From a virus, in IMG/VR virus record IMGVR_UViG_3300036652_000071, positions 1 through 25,549 of that record: 25,549 nucleotides of DNA; one strand, given 5' to 3'. This document shows positions 3,221 to 18,511 of this stretch, piece after piece. A program made the translations under genes and the position numbers. Within the stretch, counting starts at the first letter, position 1, and each line of letters starts with the position of its first letter. Under the pieces are notes generated by a model. The model saw only the letters and a list, made by a program, of their open reading frames with translations, had not been told where the DNA came from and did no database searches.

Positions 3221-3889
3221 TTACTGTGCGCCGAACAGGTCCATGAGGAACTGCTGGTCCGGGGTGAGATTGGGGATAGGCGTGATGCCGCCGCCTTGTG
3301 CGGTGACCTGTCCGGGGGTTCCGTAGGCGATCAGTGCGGCCCGGTCGCCAAAGAAAATGTCCGAGTCGCCGCCCGTCTGGTTGGTGTCCGCGTTCTGCCA
3401 CATGGCGACGTTCGCCCACGGCGCGGAACTGGACGGGCCGACAGGGTTGTACTCCGGGTCGATTAGCCCGCCGCCCAAGGCGGCCAGCGGGGTCCAGTCC
3501 CACCCGGCGCGCACGTTGGGTCCGGCGTAGTCCATGCACCAGATGCTCAGCTGCCTGGCCACCTCCTGCTCGAACGCAACACACCACTGGACCGGGTTAG
3601 CAGGCCACGGGGTGACCGGGCTGTTCTCGATGTCCAGCACCATGAACTCGCCGGACTGCCAGCCGGAGCCGATCAGGAACGCCTGCGCCTCCTGCGCCGG
3701 ATCTCCCCATGCCGGGAAGTGGTAGTGGCCTACGATCAGGCCGTCGGCGCGTCCCTCAGCCACCTGAGCGTCATGGTTCATGTTGACCTTGTAAATGCCC
3801 TGCGTGGACTTGACGTACACAAAGTCCAGCCCGGCAAGGTTCACGCTGCCCGGCTGCCAGCCGGAGATGTCTGCTCCGCGGATGCTCAT
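3221..3889 (-). CDS. Endolysin, GH25 N-acetylmuramidase
   Basis: This 222-residue protein has the glycoside hydrolase family 25 layout. The N-terminal D7-I-S-G-W strand, VYVKSTQG at about 24-31, GHYHF at 54-58, and the acidic pair in LDIEN (D86, E88) match the family's catalytic barrel; WQ at 164-165 and the DSD at 175-177 follow in the expected order. The enzyme cleaves the beta-1,4 bond between N-acetylmuramic acid and N-acetylglucosamine in peptidoglycan to release progeny. There is no signal peptide and only a short tail after about residue 190, so no large cell-wall binding domain is present. It overlaps the upstream membrane-protein gene by ATGA and precedes the holin candidate, forming the lysis block. 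Confidence 0.93.
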   Translation of the reverse strand: MSIRGADISGWQPGSVNLAGLDFVYVKSTQGIYKVNMNHDAQVAEGRADGLIVGHYHFPAWGDPAQEAQAFLIGSGWQSGEFMVLDIENSPVTPWPANPVQWCVAFEQEVARQLSIWCMDYAGPNVRAGWDWTPLAALGGGLIDPEYNPVGPSSSAPWANVAMWQNADTNQTGGDSDIFFGDRAALIAYGTPGQVTAQGGGITPIPNLTPDQQFLMDLFGAQ

Positions 3890-4335
3890 TCTGTGACGCC
3901 CTCCGATGTGTGGATGTTGACCGTGGTTGAGGGCGTGGCGGCGGCGCTGTCCAGCCGGTCCACCCGCTCGGTCAGGCGTTGGACGTTATGGACCAGCTGG
4001 ACGACGCTCTCGTGGGTCACCCGGACATGGTCTTTGATGGACTCCCCGTGGTCGGGCTCCAGTTCCTTGAGCCGGACCGTGTGGTCGTCAAGGATCTCCA
4101 ACGCCTGCCCCAGCTGTGCCTCCGTGGTGGCCTGGCGTTCCATGAGCCCGGGGCGGGCCGGGACGCCCGGACGGGCTGGTTGCCCGGACAGGTCACCGAG
4201 TAGGGTCATGATCCAGCCGTACGGTTTCGCCGCCTTGAACAGGGCAAAGATGATTAGCACCAGGATGGCGAGGACGGAAAGGACGATGGTCAGGCTGCCG
4301 CCCTGAGACATGACGAAAGTGAGTATGCTGCCCAT
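3886..4335 (-). CDS. Single-TM / coiled-coil membrane protein next to endolysin
   Basis: The 149-residue protein starts at the ATG that overlaps the stop of the upstream tail gene (TAATG), so translation is coupled. Residues about 14-33 (SLTIVLSVLAILVLIIFALF) form one strong membrane helix, with a short Pro/Arg-rich linker at 51-63 and then a long, highly charged helical region with heptad-like spacing (VVQLVHNVQRLTERVDRLDS near 111-130). The end is Thr/Ser rich. The topology suggests a membrane-anchored protein with a coiled coil facing the cytoplasm or outside. Its direct ATGA overlap with the muramidase suggests a lysis role, such as a holin or holin regulator, but a tail-associated membrane protein is also possible. 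Confidence 0.75.
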   Translation of the reverse strand: MGSILTFVMSQGGSLTIVLSVLAILVLIIFALFKAAKPYGWIMTLLGDLSGQPARPGVPARPGLMERQATTEAQLGQALEILDDHTVRLKELEPDHGESIKDHVRVTHESVVQLVHNVQRLTERVDRLDSAAATPSTTVNIHTSEGVTE

Positions 4336-7360: not shown

Positions 7361-8287
7361 TTACGCGGCTGAGTAGGTTGGGAAGATGGAGGCCGTCAGC
7401 GTGCCGGTGACAGCCACGGAATCCCCGGAGGCGAACCCGATGGTCGTTGCGCCGGGTGCGCAGGCGAAGAATGAGGAACCCACCAGCACGGTGTTGTTCC
7501 GGTTTGAGTTGCTGTTGAGGGTGACCACGCCCGCCTGGTGGTCGATGACCACGACGTCGGAGGCGCCCAGCACGATGTTCAGCTTGATGAACTGGCCGGT
7601 GTTCTGGTTGCTGATCGTCGGGTAGCTCAGCGGTCCCTGCAGGATAAAGACCGGCCGTGCCGCGTACGCGCCCGTGTTGTTCAGGGTGATCGACCCGCCA
7701 GTGGAGGCGCCGAACGTCCACGGGAACGGGGCAGGCCATGCCAGCCCCGTGGAAGGCGTTGGCAGTCCGACGGTGCCGGTCACCACTGTGCCGTCGTAGA
7801 TCGTCCCGTCGGATGAGGTCCACTCGGACACCGGGTGGACCTGCCCGAACTGGTAGTTCAGGTCAATCGGGACTGTGTGCTTGGTGGGTCGCCCGAACAG
7901 GAAGAACGGGGCCGCCCGGCCCGGCAGTTTGACCTGCAGCATGGACACCGGTTTGATGGCGCCCACGCCCGCCTGCTGGCGGAGATAGTCACCGGCGGTC
8001 ATACATACGGTGGACGGGTCAGGGACGTTCTGGAACCCGGCGGCGAGGATCTGCAATGCGTTCTCCACGCCGCCGGGCGCCAATGTCAGTTCCCACTTGA
8101 TCGTTACCGGACGTTCCCCGAGCAGGTTCAGGCCCGGGTAAACACCGTCGGACTGGGCGCGCGGGATGTCGCCGGACCGGAGCCCGGTCAGGTCACGCAG
8201 GCCGTCCACTCCCATGATGTTCACCGCGGTCCCGGCGCCCACGGTTACCCCGGTGGGCAGGACAATCTGCCAGTCCTGAACGCTCAC
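7361..8287 (-). CDS. Distal tail / siphovirus minor tail protein
   Basis: This 308-residue protein directly follows the tape measure gene, where the distal tail (Dit) protein is encoded in siphoviruses. The N-terminal half has the expected pattern: a DGLRDLTGLRSGDIPRAQSD segment, a strand with TIKWELTLA, then a helical LQILAAGF, and FFLFGRPTKHTVPIDL, which resembles the conserved core of Dit proteins. The C-terminal half is beta-rich with GPLSYPTISNQ. The start is GTG with an AAAGGCGG site upstream; the gene is separated from the tape measure by 30 bases. Dit forms a ring linking tube to tip. The family assignment is by pattern and position. Confidence 0.82.
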   Translation of the reverse strand: MSVQDWQIVLPTGVTVGAGTAVNIMGVDGLRDLTGLRSGDIPRAQSDGVYPGLNLLGERPVTIKWELTLAPGGVENALQILAAGFQNVPDPSTVCMTAGDYLRQQAGVGAIKPVSMLQVKLPGRAAPFFLFGRPTKHTVPIDLNYQFGQVHPVSEWTSSDGTIYDGTVVTGTVGLPTPSTGLAWPAPFPWTFGASTGGSITLNNTGAYAARPVFILQGPLSYPTISNQNTGQFIKLNIVLGASDVVVIDHQAGVVTLNSNSNRNNTVLVGSSFFACAPGATTIGFASGDSVAVTGTLTASIFPTYSAA

Positions 8288-13318: not shown

Positions 13319-13792
13319 TCATCCGTACATGGATATGTAGGCGGACGATGAGATGGGTGCCGCGCCGGACGTGGACAGAGCCTTGGACCGGCGGACCTTT
13401 TTGGTCGAGTGGCGTTTGAGCGGGCGGCGCTTGAGCAGCCGGTGGGTGGCAGTGCGTTTCCGCTTGGCCATCCGGTGCCGTAGAGCCCGGCGGTGTGTGG
13501 CCTTACGGACCGGCCGCCGCCGCACGGTCCGTTTACGGACGGCGCGCTTGCGGAGCGTCTTACGGCGCAAGGTCTTACGGAGTGCGGCGTGGCGTTTGGC
13601 CCGCTTGCGGTGCGCCGCCTTGGTGGTGGCCCGCTTCCGCATGGAGGCTTTGCGTACCGTCCGCTTACGGACCGCCGCGCCGGAGCGGTTGGCTATGCCC
13701 GCGTAGCGGCGGTGAGTATGATGCCTGACCTTGTTGCGGAGCAGCTTTTGCTTGCGGACCGCCCGCTTCTTACGGACGAAGCGGGACTTCAT
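13319..13792 (-). CDS. Extremely basic, acid-free Arg/Lys-rich protein
   Basis: The 157-residue protein contains 64 Lys+Arg (about 41%), about nine His, and no Asp or Glu. The basic part (residues 1-136) is built of short repeats such as RKRTVRK, RKRAVRK and RRKTLRK, alternating basic clusters with single Thr, Ala or Val, then a non-basic tail (STSGAAPISSSAYISMYG). Its ATG overlaps the upstream stop (TGATG), so it is translated with the tail terminator-like gene. It resembles protamine or histone H1 tails in composition only. It could bind packaged DNA, RNA or acidic surfaces. No known phage family came to mind. A net charge this high in the middle of the tail connector block is the oddest protein in the window. 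It is not likely a random frame because both gene junctions are tight. Confidence 0.8.
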   Translation of the reverse strand: MKSRFVRKKRAVRKQKLLRNKVRHHTHRRYAGIANRSGAAVRKRTVRKASMRKRATTKAAHRKRAKRHAALRKTLRRKTLRKRAVRKRTVRRRPVRKATHRRALRHRMAKRKRTATHRLLKRRPLKRHSTKKVRRSKALSTSGAAPISSSAYISMYG

Positions 13793-14289
13793 CAGCCGGT
13801 CCCGGCCACTATCTCGGTGACCTTGAACATCACATAGTTGATGGACCAGATTTTGCCGCCCTTGTCCCGGACGGGCAGGTCACGCTGTAGGACGATGTCC
13901 ATATCCTTGATGCCCGCCTGCCATACGGGGCCGTTGCCGCCACAGCCCAGTGTCGGGTCCGCGCGGAGCATCTTCACGACGTCGTCCAGCACGGCATCCA
14001 AGCCGTCCACCCAGCCGTCCATGCCGGTGCTGGTTGCCGGTATCCGGTACTGGTATTGGATGACCAGTGCCACGTCGTATTCCACGACGCGCTGGCCCAG
14101 GGCACCCCCAACGGTTGCCCAGGACTCGGCCTGATGGTCAATGTGGACGAAAGCGGCCGTGCCGGGGATGCCATTGTTGATCCACGCCTGGCCAGGTGTG
14201 AAGTACGGTTCATCCTTGGCCACGGAGGACAGCCCGGGGGCGTTGGTGAAGTATTTGACGATGGCTGAGCGGATCTGTGCGGATGGCAT
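13792..14289 (-). CDS. Tail terminator-like (tail completion) protein
   Basis: This 165-residue protein follows the head-tail adaptor and precedes the tail genes. Its N-terminal helix (AQIRSAIVKYF), the GQRVVEYDVALVIQYQY strand near 65-81, a helix (GWVDGLDAVLDDVVKML) and a C-terminal INYVMFKVTEIV strand match the alpha-beta plan of tail terminators that cap the tube and join it to the head. The ATG shares one base with the adaptor stop (TGATG), and its own stop likewise overlaps the next gene. The function is from fold pattern and position; a head-tail stopper is an alternative. Confidence 0.72.
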   Translation of the reverse strand: MPSAQIRSAIVKYFTNAPGLSSVAKDEPYFTPGQAWINNGIPGTAAFVHIDHQAESWATVGGALGQRVVEYDVALVIQYQYRIPATSTGMDGWVDGLDAVLDDVVKMLRADPTLGCGGNGPVWQAGIKDMDIVLQRDLPVRDKGGKIWSINYVMFKVTEIVAGTG

Positions 14290-15185
14290 CAGGTCACCCG
14301 CTTGAACTCTTGGAGCAGGTCCACGGCGGCCTCCCAGTCGTCGGCGGCCCCTGACTCCATCTTTTCGGTCTCCGCTGGCTCGCCGTGTATGGACGGCATG
14401 GAGATGGACTCGGCGCCGCGCGTCTTGATGAGCACACTGGTCAGGGCGATCACGGCCTGTTTGATCTGCTGCGGCATGGCCGTGAGCGTGTCCCCCACGG
14501 CGTAGGCGCCCACAACCGGTGAGGCGAGCGGGACGGTGCCCGGCCCGGACGTTACTGATGGGATGAACGTCGCGTCCACGGTCACGGTCTCCCCGTTAGT
14601 CGCGCCGTACAGGTAAATGGACTGGCCCGGGTTCAAGCCCAGAGTCGAGCCAACAGACAGTGACGTCGCCCCGGCCGCGGCGGAGGCGGTCAGCTGCGTG
14701 TCAGCCCAGCCGTTGACGTACTGGACGGTGCAGTAGATGTCATCCGGGAGGTGCTGGTAGTAGGACGGGTAGATCACCGAGTTACCGGTGCTGATGACCG
14801 GGATGGTGACGATGTTCGTATCATCCGGCCACACATCCACCTGAGGGGTCAGCGGGGCCATGGTGGACGGTGTCCAGCCAACGGAGATAGCGGAGATGCC
14901 TACGACCGGGTTGAACTTCAGCGGCACCCGGATGGTGCCATCGTTGCGCACCCTCCAGCGGCCTGAGCGGGTGTCCACGGTGGCGGCGAGCTTCTGGTTG
15001 CACAGCGAGTCAGCCCAGCCGGACGCCCGCCGGATCAGGTTGGCAAGCGTCTGCGAGTTGTTCAGTGATCCACCGGAGGGGAGCAGCTGGCTGGCGTCCA
15101 CCCCGGTGGGTGCGTCCAGGAACTCGGCCACCGTAATGTACGGGCTCTGCGTGGCATAGGTGGCGACGTTCGGGGGGATTATCAT
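14289..15185 (-). CDS. Head-to-tail adaptor with inserted domain
   Basis: The 298-residue protein has the helix-rich adaptor core: SPYITVAEFLDAPTGVD near 14-30, LANLIRRASGWADSLCNQKL near 47-66 and a C-terminal helical part PQQIKQAVIALTSVLIKTRG near 238-257. These fit phage gp6/gp15-type connectors that sit under the portal. Between about 163 and 236 there is a beta-rich insert (TSLSVGSTLGLNPGQSIYL, then VTSGPGTVPLASPVVGAYAV) that typical short adaptors lack. The start ATG follows a GAAAGGCGG site. The insert resembles a small carbohydrate-binding or Ig-type decoration, but that is a guess. Confidence 0.8.
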   Translation of the reverse strand: MIIPPNVATYATQSPYITVAEFLDAPTGVDASQLLPSGGSLNNSQTLANLIRRASGWADSLCNQKLAATVDTRSGRWRVRNDGTIRVPLKFNPVVGISAISVGWTPSTMAPLTPQVDVWPDDTNIVTIPVISTGNSVIYPSYYQHLPDDIYCTVQYVNGWADTQLTASAAAGATSLSVGSTLGLNPGQSIYLYGATNGETVTVDATFIPSVTSGPGTVPLASPVVGAYAVGDTLTAMPQQIKQAVIALTSVLIKTRGAESISMPSIHGEPAETEKMESGAADDWEAAVDLLQEFKRVT

Positions 15186-15197
15186 TGCCGCCGCCTT

Positions 15198-15728
15198 TCA
15201 GTGGACGTTGAGCGGGAAAGACTTGAAGTAGTCGAGCGAGTACCAGCCGCGGTTGATGAACTCCTGCTCGTATGAGCCCGGGAAAACGTCCCCGATCATC
15301 CGCCCGTCGTGGAAAACGTTCACCCCGGCGGCGGCCAGCGCGGCGTCACACAGCTGGGCGCACTGGAACTGACCGTCATTCTGGAACCGCTGGCGGACCC
15401 AGTCCGGGAACCGGAACCGGAAGATGCGCTCCACCGCGATCAGGGCGTCATCCAGGTAGGCGTAGGGCTTTCCCACCTGTGCACGCGCGTAGGCGGCCAC
15501 GGCGGCCTGCTGCGGGCCGGAGAGGTTGAACTTGGACCAGACCGCGGTCGGCCAGTCGGACAGCGGGTGCAGTGCCACGCCCTCACCGTCGGCGCTGGCG
15601 CATTCGTTCTCGCCGGTGCAGACGATCATGTGGTAGCAGTGGGAGGCGGTGACCTTACAGATGGCCCAGGAGATCCAAGAGTGTGATCCGGGGATCACAG
15701 CCACCTGCCCTATAGGTGAATCGCTCAC
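15198..15728 (-). CDS. YiiX/NlpC-P60-like permuted papain-fold hydrolase
   Basis: This 176-residue protein has the order of a permuted NlpC/P60 (YiiX-type) domain. H33 in HMIV lies in the first strand, followed by a long insert, ARAQVGKPYAYLDDALI near 81-97, the nucleophile candidate C123 in FQCAQLCDAALAAAGV, and DGRMIGDVFPGSY near 141-153. That order (His before Cys) and the GDxxPG loop are typical of actinophage members I know. Members cleave amide or lipid bonds; the substrate here is unknown. The start is GTG, overlapping the stop of the membrane-protein gene (GTGA). The enzyme is not preceded by a signal peptide. It lies in the head operon, not in the lysis block. Confidence 0.82.
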   Translation of the reverse strand: MSDSPIGQVAVIPGSHSWISWAICKVTASHCYHMIVCTGENECASADGEGVALHPLSDWPTAVWSKFNLSGPQQAAVAAYARAQVGKPYAYLDDALIAVERIFRFRFPDWVRQRFQNDGQFQCAQLCDAALAAAGVNVFHDGRMIGDVFPGSYEQEFINRGWYSLDYFKSFPLNVH

Positions 15729-16072
15729 TTCTCCCCCTCATCGTCGGCAACTTCCAGGTGGATGGCTACGGCAATGGCCCGGATCTCGGCGGCGATGGAG
15801 CGGATGTCAGCAAGCTCCTCAAGCACCGCGTCATGGGTCTCCCGGATCAGGCGCTCCGTGGATTCCGACTGGAGCCGCTGGCCCACCATGATGACCGAGA
15901 GCAGGACCAGCTGCAGGAACGCCTGAGCCGTCCATGTGGCCACGGCCGTGACCGGGGCAGGCATGAGCCCAGGAGTGGCCACCACGGCGATCCCGGCAAA
16001 GATCAGGGCGCAGTACATGGTGCCGACGGCGCCGGTGATGCGCAGTGCCACAGCGTCCAGCCACTTACTCAT
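15725..16072 (-). CDS. Two-TM small membrane protein
   Basis: The 115-residue protein has two hydrophobic helices: about residues 13-32 (GAVGTMYCALIFAGIAVVAT) and 45-63 (ATWTAQAFLQLVLLSVIMV). The second ends in GQRLQSESTE and is followed by a charged helix with heptad-like spacing (LIRETHDAVLEELADIRSIA) and an acidic end. Similar short two-TM proteins with an LQLVLL-x-VIMVGQ helix occur in actinobacteria and their phages, function unknown to me. Its ATG lies inside the last bases of the PLD-like gene (8-base overlap), and its stop overlaps the YiiX-like gene start. The three genes therefore appear to be one translational unit. Confidence 0.8.
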   Translation of the reverse strand: MSKWLDAVALRITGAVGTMYCALIFAGIAVVATPGLMPAPVTAVATWTAQAFLQLVLLSVIMVGQRLQSESTERLIRETHDAVLEELADIRSIAAEIRAIAVAIHLEVADDEGEK

Positions 16073-16619
16073 GGGGAGCGGCTTTCGCTGCCATGTCCTT
16101 CAGTGCCTTGGTGTGGGAGAGGTCCAGAATGTGCCGGGCCTCAGCGCAGGCAACCGCGTTGTTGGTTACGGTCAGTTCGTTGTCCTGCAACCGCTCGCCT
16201 GAGTCGGACCAGTTGGTGGACCCGGTGACCAGCCAGATGCCATTGACGATCATCATTTTGCGGTGGATGATCTGGCCCTTCTCGGACCGGCCGATGGCCA
16301 CCGAGTTGCCGGTGAACTCGTTGTGATACTTGGCCAGCAGCGCCCGCTCATGCACCCCGCCTGCCTGGCTGGAATCCAGCGTCAACTGAGCGTAGACGTC
16401 CGGGTTCTTCAGGAACCCGTCGATCAGGGCCGCGGCGTCGTCATCGTCAAAGCCGTACATGGAGAGCACGAAACTGGTTCGCACCTCACCGAGAACGGCA
16501 ACGATGACGCTGTGCACGTCATCCCACGGCGAGTAGAACCGGCGCGTGTCGGACTGGTAGTTAGGGTCTACCGGACGGGTGGCCTTGAACTGGTCGAGAT
16601 CCGTTATGGTCAGGGCCAC
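16065..16619 (-). CDS. Single-HKD phospholipase D-like protein (Nuc family type)
   Basis: A 184-residue protein; the GTG start at 16619 has an AAGGAAG site 7 bases upstream, whereas the frame extends further only as a shadow of the gene before. The N-terminus RRFYSPWDDVHSVIVAVLGE and MYGFDDDDAAALIDGFLK follow the usual first half of Nuc-type PLD nucleases. H119-R-K121 and G133-S-T-N136 are the catalytic and phosphate-binding parts, but the D that normally follows HxK by five is N126. N147 and E148 are in place. Such single-HKD proteins dimerise to make one active site and hydrolyse DNA or phospholipid phosphodiesters. Whether the D to N change abolishes activity is unknown. It lies between the major capsid gene and the adaptor, not a usual place for a PLD. 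Confidence 0.87.
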   Translation of the reverse strand: MALTITDLDQFKATRPVDPNYQSDTRRFYSPWDDVHSVIVAVLGEVRTSFVLSMYGFDDDDAAALIDGFLKNPDVYAQLTLDSSQAGGVHERALLAKYHNEFTGNSVAIGRSEKGQIIHRKMMIVNGIWLVTGSTNWSDSGERLQDNELTVTNNAVACAEARHILDLSHTKALKDMAAKAAPHE

Positions 16620-16632
16620 GGCAGCACTTCCT

Positions 16633-16827
16633 TTACTTCTTGGCGACGGGCTTTCGCTTGGGGGTTTCGCTGGGCTCAGCGGGCGGTTCGGCTTCTTCCC
16701 AGTCGTGGACCCGGAGCAGCCACTCGGCCACCTCAGGGGGCACCTCGAAGCGGCCCTCATCGTCGGGCTGGTAGCGCTCACCCGCTGCGGACAGTTCAGT
16801 AACGCCGGACTTAGTGACAAAAGCCAT
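16633..16827 (-). CDS. Small hypothetical protein after the capsid gene
   Basis: This 64-residue protein starts at MAFVTKSGV; an AAGGAG site 6 to 7 bases before this ATG decides the start against an upstream in-frame ATG. It reads GERYQPDDEGRFEVPPEVAEWL and then a helix, with a Glu/Pro-rich linker and a basic KRKPVAKK end. Small proteins with a short VPPEVAEWLL motif are common beside phage capsid genes, where some act as decoration or connector parts; no function can be claimed. It sits directly after the tRNA and ahead of the PLD-like gene. Confidence 0.7.
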   Translation of the reverse strand: MAFVTKSGVTELSAAGERYQPDDEGRFEVPPEVAEWLLRVHDWEEAEPPAEPSETPKRKPVAKK

Positions 16828-16915
16828 GGGATTCTCCTTGGTCTGTGTTGTGGGGATTTGGTGGTGGGTCACCGCCCTGTTGGGATGTTTATTGCCGTCG
16901 CCGGATTAGATGACG

Positions 16916-16988
16916 TGGCAGCAGCAGGAATCGAACCTGCCGTGGACTGATTTACGGTCAGCCCTGGCACCTTGCCTCTTCTACTGCC
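16916..16988 (-). tRNA. tRNA-Tyr (anticodon GTA), atypical
   Basis: A 73-base cloverleaf can be folded. The seven acceptor pairs all form (one T-G), the T arm is GCAGG/CCTGC with loop TTCGATT, and the anticodon stem GCTGA/TCAGT closes a 7-base loop CCGTAAA, giving anticodon GTA. No CCA is encoded; the discriminator base is A. Oddities: position 33 is C, not the near-universal T; position 8 is G instead of T; the D arm is irregular, only GGC/GCC with loop AAGGT; and the variable region is five bases rather than the long arm usual for bacterial Tyr tRNA. It lies 3 bases after a strong hairpin and behind the capsid gene. It may be functional, degenerate or a processing element. Confidence 0.72.
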
Positions 16989-16991
16989 GGG

Positions 16992-17026
16992 GGGACGGCG
17001 CGCGTATCCCCGACGCGCGCCGTCCC
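16992..17026 (-). other. Perfect 13-bp inverted repeat, capsid 3' UTR hairpin
   Basis: Arms 16992-17004 and 17014-17026 are exact reverse complements (GGGACGGCGCGCG), with a 9-base loop. It is almost all G/C and starts 21 bases after the capsid gene stop and ends 3 bases before the tRNA. No T run follows, so it is not a classical intrinsic terminator. It could protect the capsid mRNA 3' end from exonuclease, slow polymerase, or assist tRNA processing. Confidence 0.85.
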
Positions 17027-17047
17027 GGTCTAGCTCACGACTGCTGG

Positions 17048-18511
17048 TTAGCCAGCCGCGATGTTGTTGATGACCGCGCAGGTGACAGGCGCCTTGTTGG
17101 TCAGGGTCTCCAGCGAGGAAACGTCCCATTCCTCACGCGGGCCGCCATTGGCGCCCGGGCTCAGAGAAACGCCGTAGTCGAACTCGGCCACGTCGCGCAG
17201 GGTGCGCACGCTGAAGGTGTTGGCGATGCCCGAGTTCGGGTACGGAACCCGCTCGGTCAGGGCCAGAATGGTGCCCGGAGGGATGTGAGGATCGACCACG
17301 ATCATGATCTCCTCACCGCCCGCGGAACCGTTCAGGTAGCGCGCCACGGAACCACCAGCGGTGGCACCGGCACGGCCGTTGCCCTGCGGCTCCAGGTAGG
17401 TCACAGCGTTGCCGCCGCCGAACACCTTGCCCTTGATGTCCTTGGCCTGCTGGGAGTTCATCAGGTACACGGACGGGGAGAGGTTGGTCGCCTCGAACAC
17501 CAGTTCGTTGAGGTTGTCCAGTTCGGTGATGCCCTGAGCGGAGCCCGTGAGGGTCGCACCGTCCAGGGACATGAACGTGGCGCCGGACGTGGTGCCGGAA
17601 CCTGCCTGCACCAGACCGTTGGTGCCGTAGTCACCGGACAGCGTGGCCAGGATGCCGTTGTAGGCGTTGGTGCTGTAGGAGGTGTCCACGGCCGGGACAG
17701 CGGTCGGCTGGATGTTGGACAGGGACGGGAACCCGGCAACCGGGACCGGCGCGTTCGCGGCAGGCATGGACGTCAGCGTGAACTTGTTGGTGGTGGTGGT
17801 GCCCACGTAGTAGGCAGTGCCGCCGCCGTTCGCTGCGAACCAGTCGTAAGCCACAGCACCGCGCACAGCCGGGACGGAAGCCGCCACGGAGTTGGTGGTG
17901 CCCGCGGAGACGGTGACCGAGTTGTCAACCGACGCCGCGCCCGAGCCGCCGTAGTAGTAGTTGTACGCGGAACGGGCAGCGGCCCGGATGTGCACAACGA
18001 TGGAGGCGCCGATGGTGCCGCCGGTAGCGGACGCCGTCAACGTGGTAGCGCCGATGGCCGGGAGCGGGAAGTTCTGCCCGCCGATGATGGCCTTGTTGGC
18101 CGCGATCCGCCACTGCATGAGCGTGCCGGTGACCGCGATTGCCTTGGCATCCGCGTAGTTCTTGGCCAGCGCGATGGCGTCCTGCGTGACCTTGCCGGAC
18201 AGACGGAGCGGCTGGTACTGAGCCAGCACGTCCAGTTCGGAGAAGTTCACAAAGGAACCGCCGCCGTCAATCCCGGTGAAGGGGTTGGGCTGGGTGTTGT
18301 TGATGTTCAGCATTGCGCGCCAGTGCGCGGCCTGCGAACCGTCGCCCTGCTCGCGCTTGATGCGCTCGAACGTGGGGGTCACGACCGGGACCAGCGAAAC
18401 AACGCCGGACAGGTCATAGCCATACAGGCCGGTGGTGCCTACAACACCAGCGGTCTGGGCTTTGCGGACGGCATCCAGAGTTTCCTCCGTGATGCCATTG
18501 ATGTCAGTCAT
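17048..18511 (-). CDS. Major capsid protein with inserted beta-domain
   Basis: This 487-residue protein follows the protease/scaffold genes and has an HK97-fold feel: N-terminal arm, TPTFERIKREQGDGSQAAHW near 45-64, a helical LAKNYADAKAIAVTGTLMQWRIAANKAI region near 115-142, and a C-terminal half with ELDNLNELVFEA, SPSVYLMNSQQAKDIKGKVF and GGEEIMIVVDPHIPPGTILAL near 398-418. Between about 145 and 255 there is a Ser/Thr/Gly-rich segment with SVTVSAGTT-like strands and AVRGAVAYDWF, a fibronectin III/Ig-type layout that interrupts the fold; it may project from the capsid surface. A GAAAGGG site precedes the ATG. It is the most likely capsid subunit because of length, place and neighbours. Confidence 0.88.
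   Translation of the reverse strand: MTDINGITEETLDAVRKAQTAGVVGTTGLYGYDLSGVVSLVPVVTPTFERIKREQGDGSQAAHWRAMLNINNTQPNPFTGIDGGGSFVNFSELDVLAQYQPLRLSGKVTQDAIALAKNYADAKAIAVTGTLMQWRIAANKAIIGGQNFPLPAIGATTLTASATGGTIGASIVVHIRAAARSAYNYYYGGSGAASVDNSVTVSAGTTNSVAASVPAVRGAVAYDWFAANGGGTAYYVGTTTTNKFTLTSMPAANAPVPVAGFPSLSNIQPTAVPAVDTSYSTNAYNGILATLSGDYGTNGLVQAGSGTTSGATFMSLDGATLTGSAQGITELDNLNELVFEATNLSPSVYLMNSQQAKDIKGKVFGGGNAVTYLEPQGNGRAGATAGGSVARYLNGSAGGEEIMIVVDPHIPPGTILALTERVPYPNSGIANTFSVRTLRDVAEFDYGVSLSPGANGGPREEWDVSSLETLTNKAPVTCAVINNIAAG

Follow-up and report, generated by a model that had tools for sequence, protein, structure and literature searches.

A mobile PLD, two-TM and YiiX-like gene set between the capsid and adaptor genes of a virus contig, with a possible role in late envelope breakdown

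Why would a virus encode a PLD-like protein, a membrane protein and a YiiX-like enzyme side by side among its head genes? The window, by which we mean the whole stretch of DNA analysed here, is a 25.5 kb virus contig (25,549 nt, IMGVR_UViG_3300036652_000071, positions 1 to 25,549). It is probably a fragment, and it belongs to a soil virus whose hosts are probably actinobacterial. An earlier note on this DNA had proposed that the three genes form a membrane-directed module carried as a moron, serving superinfection exclusion, envelope remodelling during entry or anti-defence. We examined the gene anatomy, the predicted folds, the same locus in relatives and the distribution of the genes in other phages.

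The three genes are co-directional, all on the minus strand. They encode a single-HKD PLD protein of 184 aa with a NucT/Nuc-like predicted fold (16065..16619, GTG start), a two-TM membrane protein of 115 aa that is remotely DUF1003-like (15725..16072, ATG start) and a YiiX-like, permuted papain-fold putative hydrolase or acyltransferase of 176 aa (15198..15728, GTG start). Reading the junction sequences confirmed the overlaps reported in the earlier note, 8 bases between the PLD and two-TM genes (16065-16072) and 4 bases between the two-TM and YiiX-like genes (15725-15728). The downstream neighbour (14289..15185, minus strand) is a head-tail adaptor-like gene (PHROG 442 head-tail adaptor, E=8e-5). 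The upstream neighbour (17048..18511, minus strand) matches PHROG 13692 (E=4e-44), a family that carries no named function, and from its position and conservation we infer that it is the major capsid protein gene. With this qualification on the capsid side, the proposed location between capsid and adaptor genes holds. The same strand carries, between the capsid gene and the PLD gene, a strong hairpin (16991..17028; stem of 14 pairs, -34 kcal/mol), a tRNA-Tyr-like element (GTA; 16915..16991) whose D-arm is reduced, and a small gene of 64-79 aa whose start is uncertain (16633..16872). The tRNA-like element folds as a cloverleaf, and ARAGORN reports it only at a lowered threshold. No consensus promoter or terminator was found on the coding strand of the cassette in a scan for the sigma-70 consensus; the hairpin precedes the cassette. 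We regard the cassette ORFs as genes and not chance ORFs because four relatives conserve PLD and YiiX in this position, two of the four also having a two-TM gene in the middle slot. Elsewhere in the head operon, a protein of 157 aa (13319-13792, minus strand) is very rich in Arg and Lys and repetitive in composition.

The PLD protein matches Pfam PLDc_2 above the gathering score (E=7e-9). A profile built from 50 PLD sequences and compared with PDB retrieved Nuc first (E=4e-9) and NucT next (E=6e-8), and the AlphaFold model (pLDDT 85) contains a whole-domain PLD fold that aligns with NucT (Z 18.1 over 148 residues) and Nuc (Z 17.8), followed by FAM83B, Zucchini and a phospholipase D. Residues H119, K121, S134, N136 and E142 are invariant across the 50 sequences. 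The family carries the HxK(x)4D(x)6GSxN motif, with D at position 126 in 46/50 sequences and N in the remaining four, which are the window and three close relatives; in the window this N variant (N126) leaves HxK..GSxN intact. The protein is thus similar to NucT of Helicobacter pylori (6ehi) and Nuc of plasmid pKM101 (1byr) in length, in its single HxK..GSxN motif and in its predicted fold over ~148 residues. It differs from them in its low identity (only about 16-18%), in the replacement of D by N in the HKD motif of those four sequences, in the family's own invariant DDD and DxxQAxG motifs, in the absence of a visible signal peptide (hydropathy only) and in being acidic across the family (pI 4.7-6.2). 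Since Nuc and NucT are described with a positive groove (PMC5714352), this acidity fits a nucleic-acid groove badly. Orthology with NucT was rejected, the NCBIfam model NF010492 giving 25.8 bits against a cut-off of 297, so that the two are related only. PADLOC matched the PLD protein weakly to the defence PLDs DrmC and DpdK; across the cassette and its flanks, the two cassette neighbours had zero matches and the flanking genes were head-like. Because PADLOC and NCBIfam gave PLD matches at superfamily level only, we did not assign the gene to a defence system (DISARM for DrmC, Dpd for DpdK). A BFVD fold search retrieved remote viral PLDs, including one from Arthrobacter phage Galaxy that is NucT-like.

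In the middle protein, residues 14-32 and 44-62 form two hydrophobic segments. Its match to DUF1003 (PF06210) is sub-threshold (E=0.006, 17.2 bits vs gathering 27.4), and profile-profile comparison with the DUF1003 proteins of relatives gave a probability of 56% (E=1e-4). It shares with DUF1003 the two TMs and a similar C-terminal region but is only remotely similar to it. In two relatives (L003 and L008) the middle gene is a DUF1003 gene that reaches the gathering score (E 1e-24). The window protein had no tblastn match among GenBank phages at the limits used, and our literature search found no paper joining phage and DUF1003.

The third protein matches PHROG 1128 (E=6e-17). It has no match to Pfam PF05708 (Peptidase_C92, YaeF/YiiX) at the gathering score, and its counterpart in the relative L009 has a match below it (E=0.008, 16.6 bits vs gathering 27). 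The AlphaFold model (pLDDT 89) has E. coli YiiX (2if6) as its top fold match (Z 12.8, rmsd 2.8 over 136 residues), then B. cereus 3kw0 (Z 12.1). H33 and C123 are invariant in 17 sequences and stand in the permuted order, His before Cys, that is common to the YiiX/YaeF fold. In contrast to YiiX/YaeF, the protein lies under the Pfam threshold, is encoded by a phage and lacks a visible export signal (hydropathy only). The LRAT/PLAAT (HRASLS) lipid acyltransferases and phospholipases and the Salmonella T6SS effector Tox-Act1 fall in the same permuted NlpC/P60 class; the PLAAT structures align with a Z of about 7, a value that common arrangements also reach, and for Tox-Act1 the likeness is one of class. 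Published work describes YiiX-related permuted NlpC/P60 enzymes as active on lipids, with Tox-Act1 cleaving PG and PE (PMC12994826). The names given to the three products in the earlier note are thus borne out by the PLDc_2 match, the hydrophobic segments, and PHROG 1128 together with the YiiX fold. Its suggestion of a membrane-directed module acting on lipids or phosphodiester-like bonds fares less evenly. It is plausible for the middle protein, as a membrane protein, and for the YiiX-like protein, through its lipid-active relatives, but for the PLD protein a lipid target is not clear, since the solved structures nearest to it are those of the nucleases NucT and Nuc.

Searches of IMG/VR with the MCP, PLD and YiiX proteins yielded four further members of a clade that comprises five with the window, and PLD and YiiX lie between the capsid and adaptor genes in all five. 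Through the adaptor (41-47% identical) we also found four more distant collinear contigs (L123, L124, L125 and L126), in which the capsid stop is followed by the hairpin and then directly by the adaptor, the inserted genes being absent. These contigs keep the order capsid, adaptor and following tail genes, with portal and protease upstream where the locus extends so far, and by eye a hairpin can be made out in them too at the end of the capsid gene. Compared with their empty site, the filled site adds the tRNA-Tyr-like element, the 64-79 aa gene, and the PLD, two-TM and YiiX-like genes. The small gene is missing from the empty sites and has homologues at the same place in L003 and L008 and same-cluster (c28) ORFs in L010 and L030. 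As four collinear contigs have nothing between hairpin and adaptor, the block from about 15186 to 16990 (minus strand) is most simply read, from comparison of the loci, as having been inserted in the clade of the window, although its loss from the other contigs is formally possible. This agrees with the view of the cassette as a moron, since it separates two genes that are adjacent in relatives, and it rules out a virion part conserved in all relatives. Some of the four empty-site contigs are fragments; at other places in them PLD was not detected, and YiiX is present in two.

Further tRNA genes or tRNA-like elements were seen around these loci. A tRNA-Trp lies upstream of the cassette in L017 (279-352) and L018 (7678-7752), at the same place as the window's element, and reading the sequence of L030 indicates a Tyr (GTA) tRNA-like element with a short D-arm at about 7660-7733. 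No tRNA or tRNA-like element was seen upstream of the cassette in L010.

The membership of the set varies within the clade. The middle slot holds DUF1003 in two members (L003 and L008), the window type in one, and no gene in the other two (L009 and L010). L009 and L010 are sisters by their capsid (88% identical), YiiX (79%) and adaptor (77%) proteins, but their PLD proteins are only 57% identical, that of L010 being 82% identical to the window's. This conflict indicates that PLD was exchanged alone, independently of its flanks. A fixed three-gene unit, present or absent as a whole, is therefore ruled out among the relatives checked by the swap or absence of the middle gene and the separate exchange of PLD; in many contigs, too, PLD and YiiX are found apart.

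Beyond this clade, the PLD subfamily was not found with two tblastn queries among 50,697 GenBank phages at the limits used, yet our profile search detected it in at least 130 uncultured viral contigs, of which 80 were retrieved, and in seven genome contigs. By title, five of the latter are actinobacterial (Micrococcales, Streptosporangiaceae, Streptomyces (L105), an Actinomycetes MAG and Nocardia), one is from Dormibacteraeota and one from Proteobacteria. The L105 copy would belong to a putative prophage of Streptomyces sp. SDr-06. We located PLD, YiiX, DUF1003, Amidase_2 and GH25 in a sample of 50 PLD-bearing viral contigs, of which L018 and L030 belong to the window's clade. Among the 21 contigs with YiiX, 13 have it no more than 1.5 kb from PLD (expected 1.4). 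DUF1003 is found within 1 kb of PLD in 7 of the 8 contigs that encode it (expected 0.4), and 12 of the 18 contigs with an endolysin domain (Amidase_2 or GH25) have one no further than 3 kb from PLD (expected 2.3). When contigs that share tblastx coverage are merged into groups, each represented by its worst member, proximity persists for YiiX (7/15, P = 5e-5), DUF1003 (6/7, P = 7e-7) and endolysin (6/11, P = 0.001), under a chance model of uniform placement along the contig, with which a hot spot is therefore compatible. PLD, YiiX and DUF1003-type genes thus cluster beyond chance in other phages too. The gene order is GH25 endolysin, DUF1003, PLD and YiiX in L041, and amidase endolysin, PLD, YiiX and a small TM protein in L038 and L042.

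Other arrangements were also observed. In L005 (4782-7733; the same contig as L019), genes for PLD, an NlpC/P60 protein, DUF1003, a papain-C1-like protein and YiiX are consecutive, and the other phage genes are different; this DUF1003 is 78% identical to those of L003 and L008. A small membrane protein directly follows PLD in L055, L072, L075 and L045, with a match to VIT1 (tested on L072). YiiX without PLD lies upstream of terminase in L100 and in Streptomyces phage Ibantik, at most a few genes away (L100 7983-8531; Ibantik gene 61, L109 4893-5399). In L100, where no PLD partner was found in the contig, a tRNA-Tyr (7879-7955) directly precedes the YiiX gene.

What, then, could these proteins do? 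The position between capsid and adaptor genes, the presence of PLD and YiiX in all five clade members, and the occurrence of two-TM and PLD genes near MCP-like genes in L048 and L086 as well would suit proteins that are made with the head, delivered with the DNA and active on envelope or nucleic acid at entry. We consider this very unlikely: the genes are dispensable, given the four collinear relatives without them at the site and without a detected PLD in those contigs, most other carriers have PLD away from head genes, and the strong hairpin separates the cassette from the capsid gene. Morons often serve superinfection exclusion or inter-phage competition. Applied to this locus, such a role would have the two-TM and YiiX proteins alter the membrane and the NucT-like PLD degrade incoming DNA, for which the nuclease relatives of PLD, its weak superfamily-level matches to DrmC and DpdK and its exchange between phages independently of the flanks may speak; the late-operon position adjoining endolysin genes, instead of an early or lysogenic region, does not fit it well, and we regard it as possible but on the unlikely side. 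It is also unlikely, in our view, that PLD, YiiX and two-TM are independent accessory genes, each of its own small benefit, co-located at a few permissive late sites. The varying order and membership, the many contigs with PLD and YiiX apart, the exchange of PLD without YiiX, and the different tRNA kinds at the same insertion site would follow from such hot spots. Such sites account less well for the clustering that persists under the uniform-placement model after related contigs are collapsed, for the few-base gaps and overlapping frames, and for the fact that the window, L018, L019 and L041 all bring PLD, two-TM and YiiX genes together, though not in one order.

Our preferred explanation, to which we assign a probability of roughly 0.4, is that the cassette is a mobile late-operon moron of one phage clade whose proteins help to dismantle the host cell late in infection, beside the holin-endolysin cassette. 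Lysis or late envelope breakdown is favoured over exclusion, entry remodelling and anti-defence because the PLD family is located beside endolysin genes. Acyl groups of membrane lipids, or of envelope components linked to lipid, would be cleaved or transferred by the YiiX-like enzyme. The DUF1003-like two-TM protein would work within the membrane or at its surface, in a holin-like way or as an anchor, and a NucT/Nuc-like PLD dimer would cut nucleic acid in the dying cell or, less likely, phospholipid. The locus comparisons are best read as the relocation of a module to the head operon within the window's clade, while many uncultured relatives keep such genes beside lysis genes.

Several observations count against this lysis reading, among them the acidity of PLD, the lack of a visible export signal, and the occurrence of YiiX without PLD upstream of terminase. 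A holin and an endolysin adjoin the cassette in several other carriers but not in the window, whose own holin-like gene (3886-4335) and GH25 endolysin gene (3221-3889) lie about 11-12 kb away; as the phage has these separate genes, it does not need the cassette for lysis. Accessory genes also tend to gather in the lysis region, so the proximity of PLD to endolysins may reflect a permissive site.

Multi-gene lysis cassettes of actinobacteriophages, for example in Gordonia phages, are mosaic sets of an endolysin and several small TM genes (PMC9671378). Similar regions house PLD and YiiX in many relatives, whereas in the window the head operon holds the set and the lysis genes are elsewhere. The string 'phospholip' does not occur in the text of that paper, and the papers found to mention both YiiX and phage describe no such cassette in their titles or the openings of their abstracts. 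We therefore raise, as a speculative proposal, a hitherto undescribed three-activity envelope-breakdown module of uncultured actinophages that is mobile between lysis region and head operon and supplements the holin-endolysin pathway. Its parts would be a putative NucT-like PLD nuclease or lipase, a putative DUF1003-class membrane protein and a putative permuted NlpC/P60 lipid hydrolase. Because collinear genomes offer both empty and filled sites, and the middle slot two interchangeable kinds of two-TM gene, its function would be testable by gene removal in a cultured carrier. If the proposal is true, some phages would extend the holin-endolysin pathway by the breakdown of lipids and nucleic acids.
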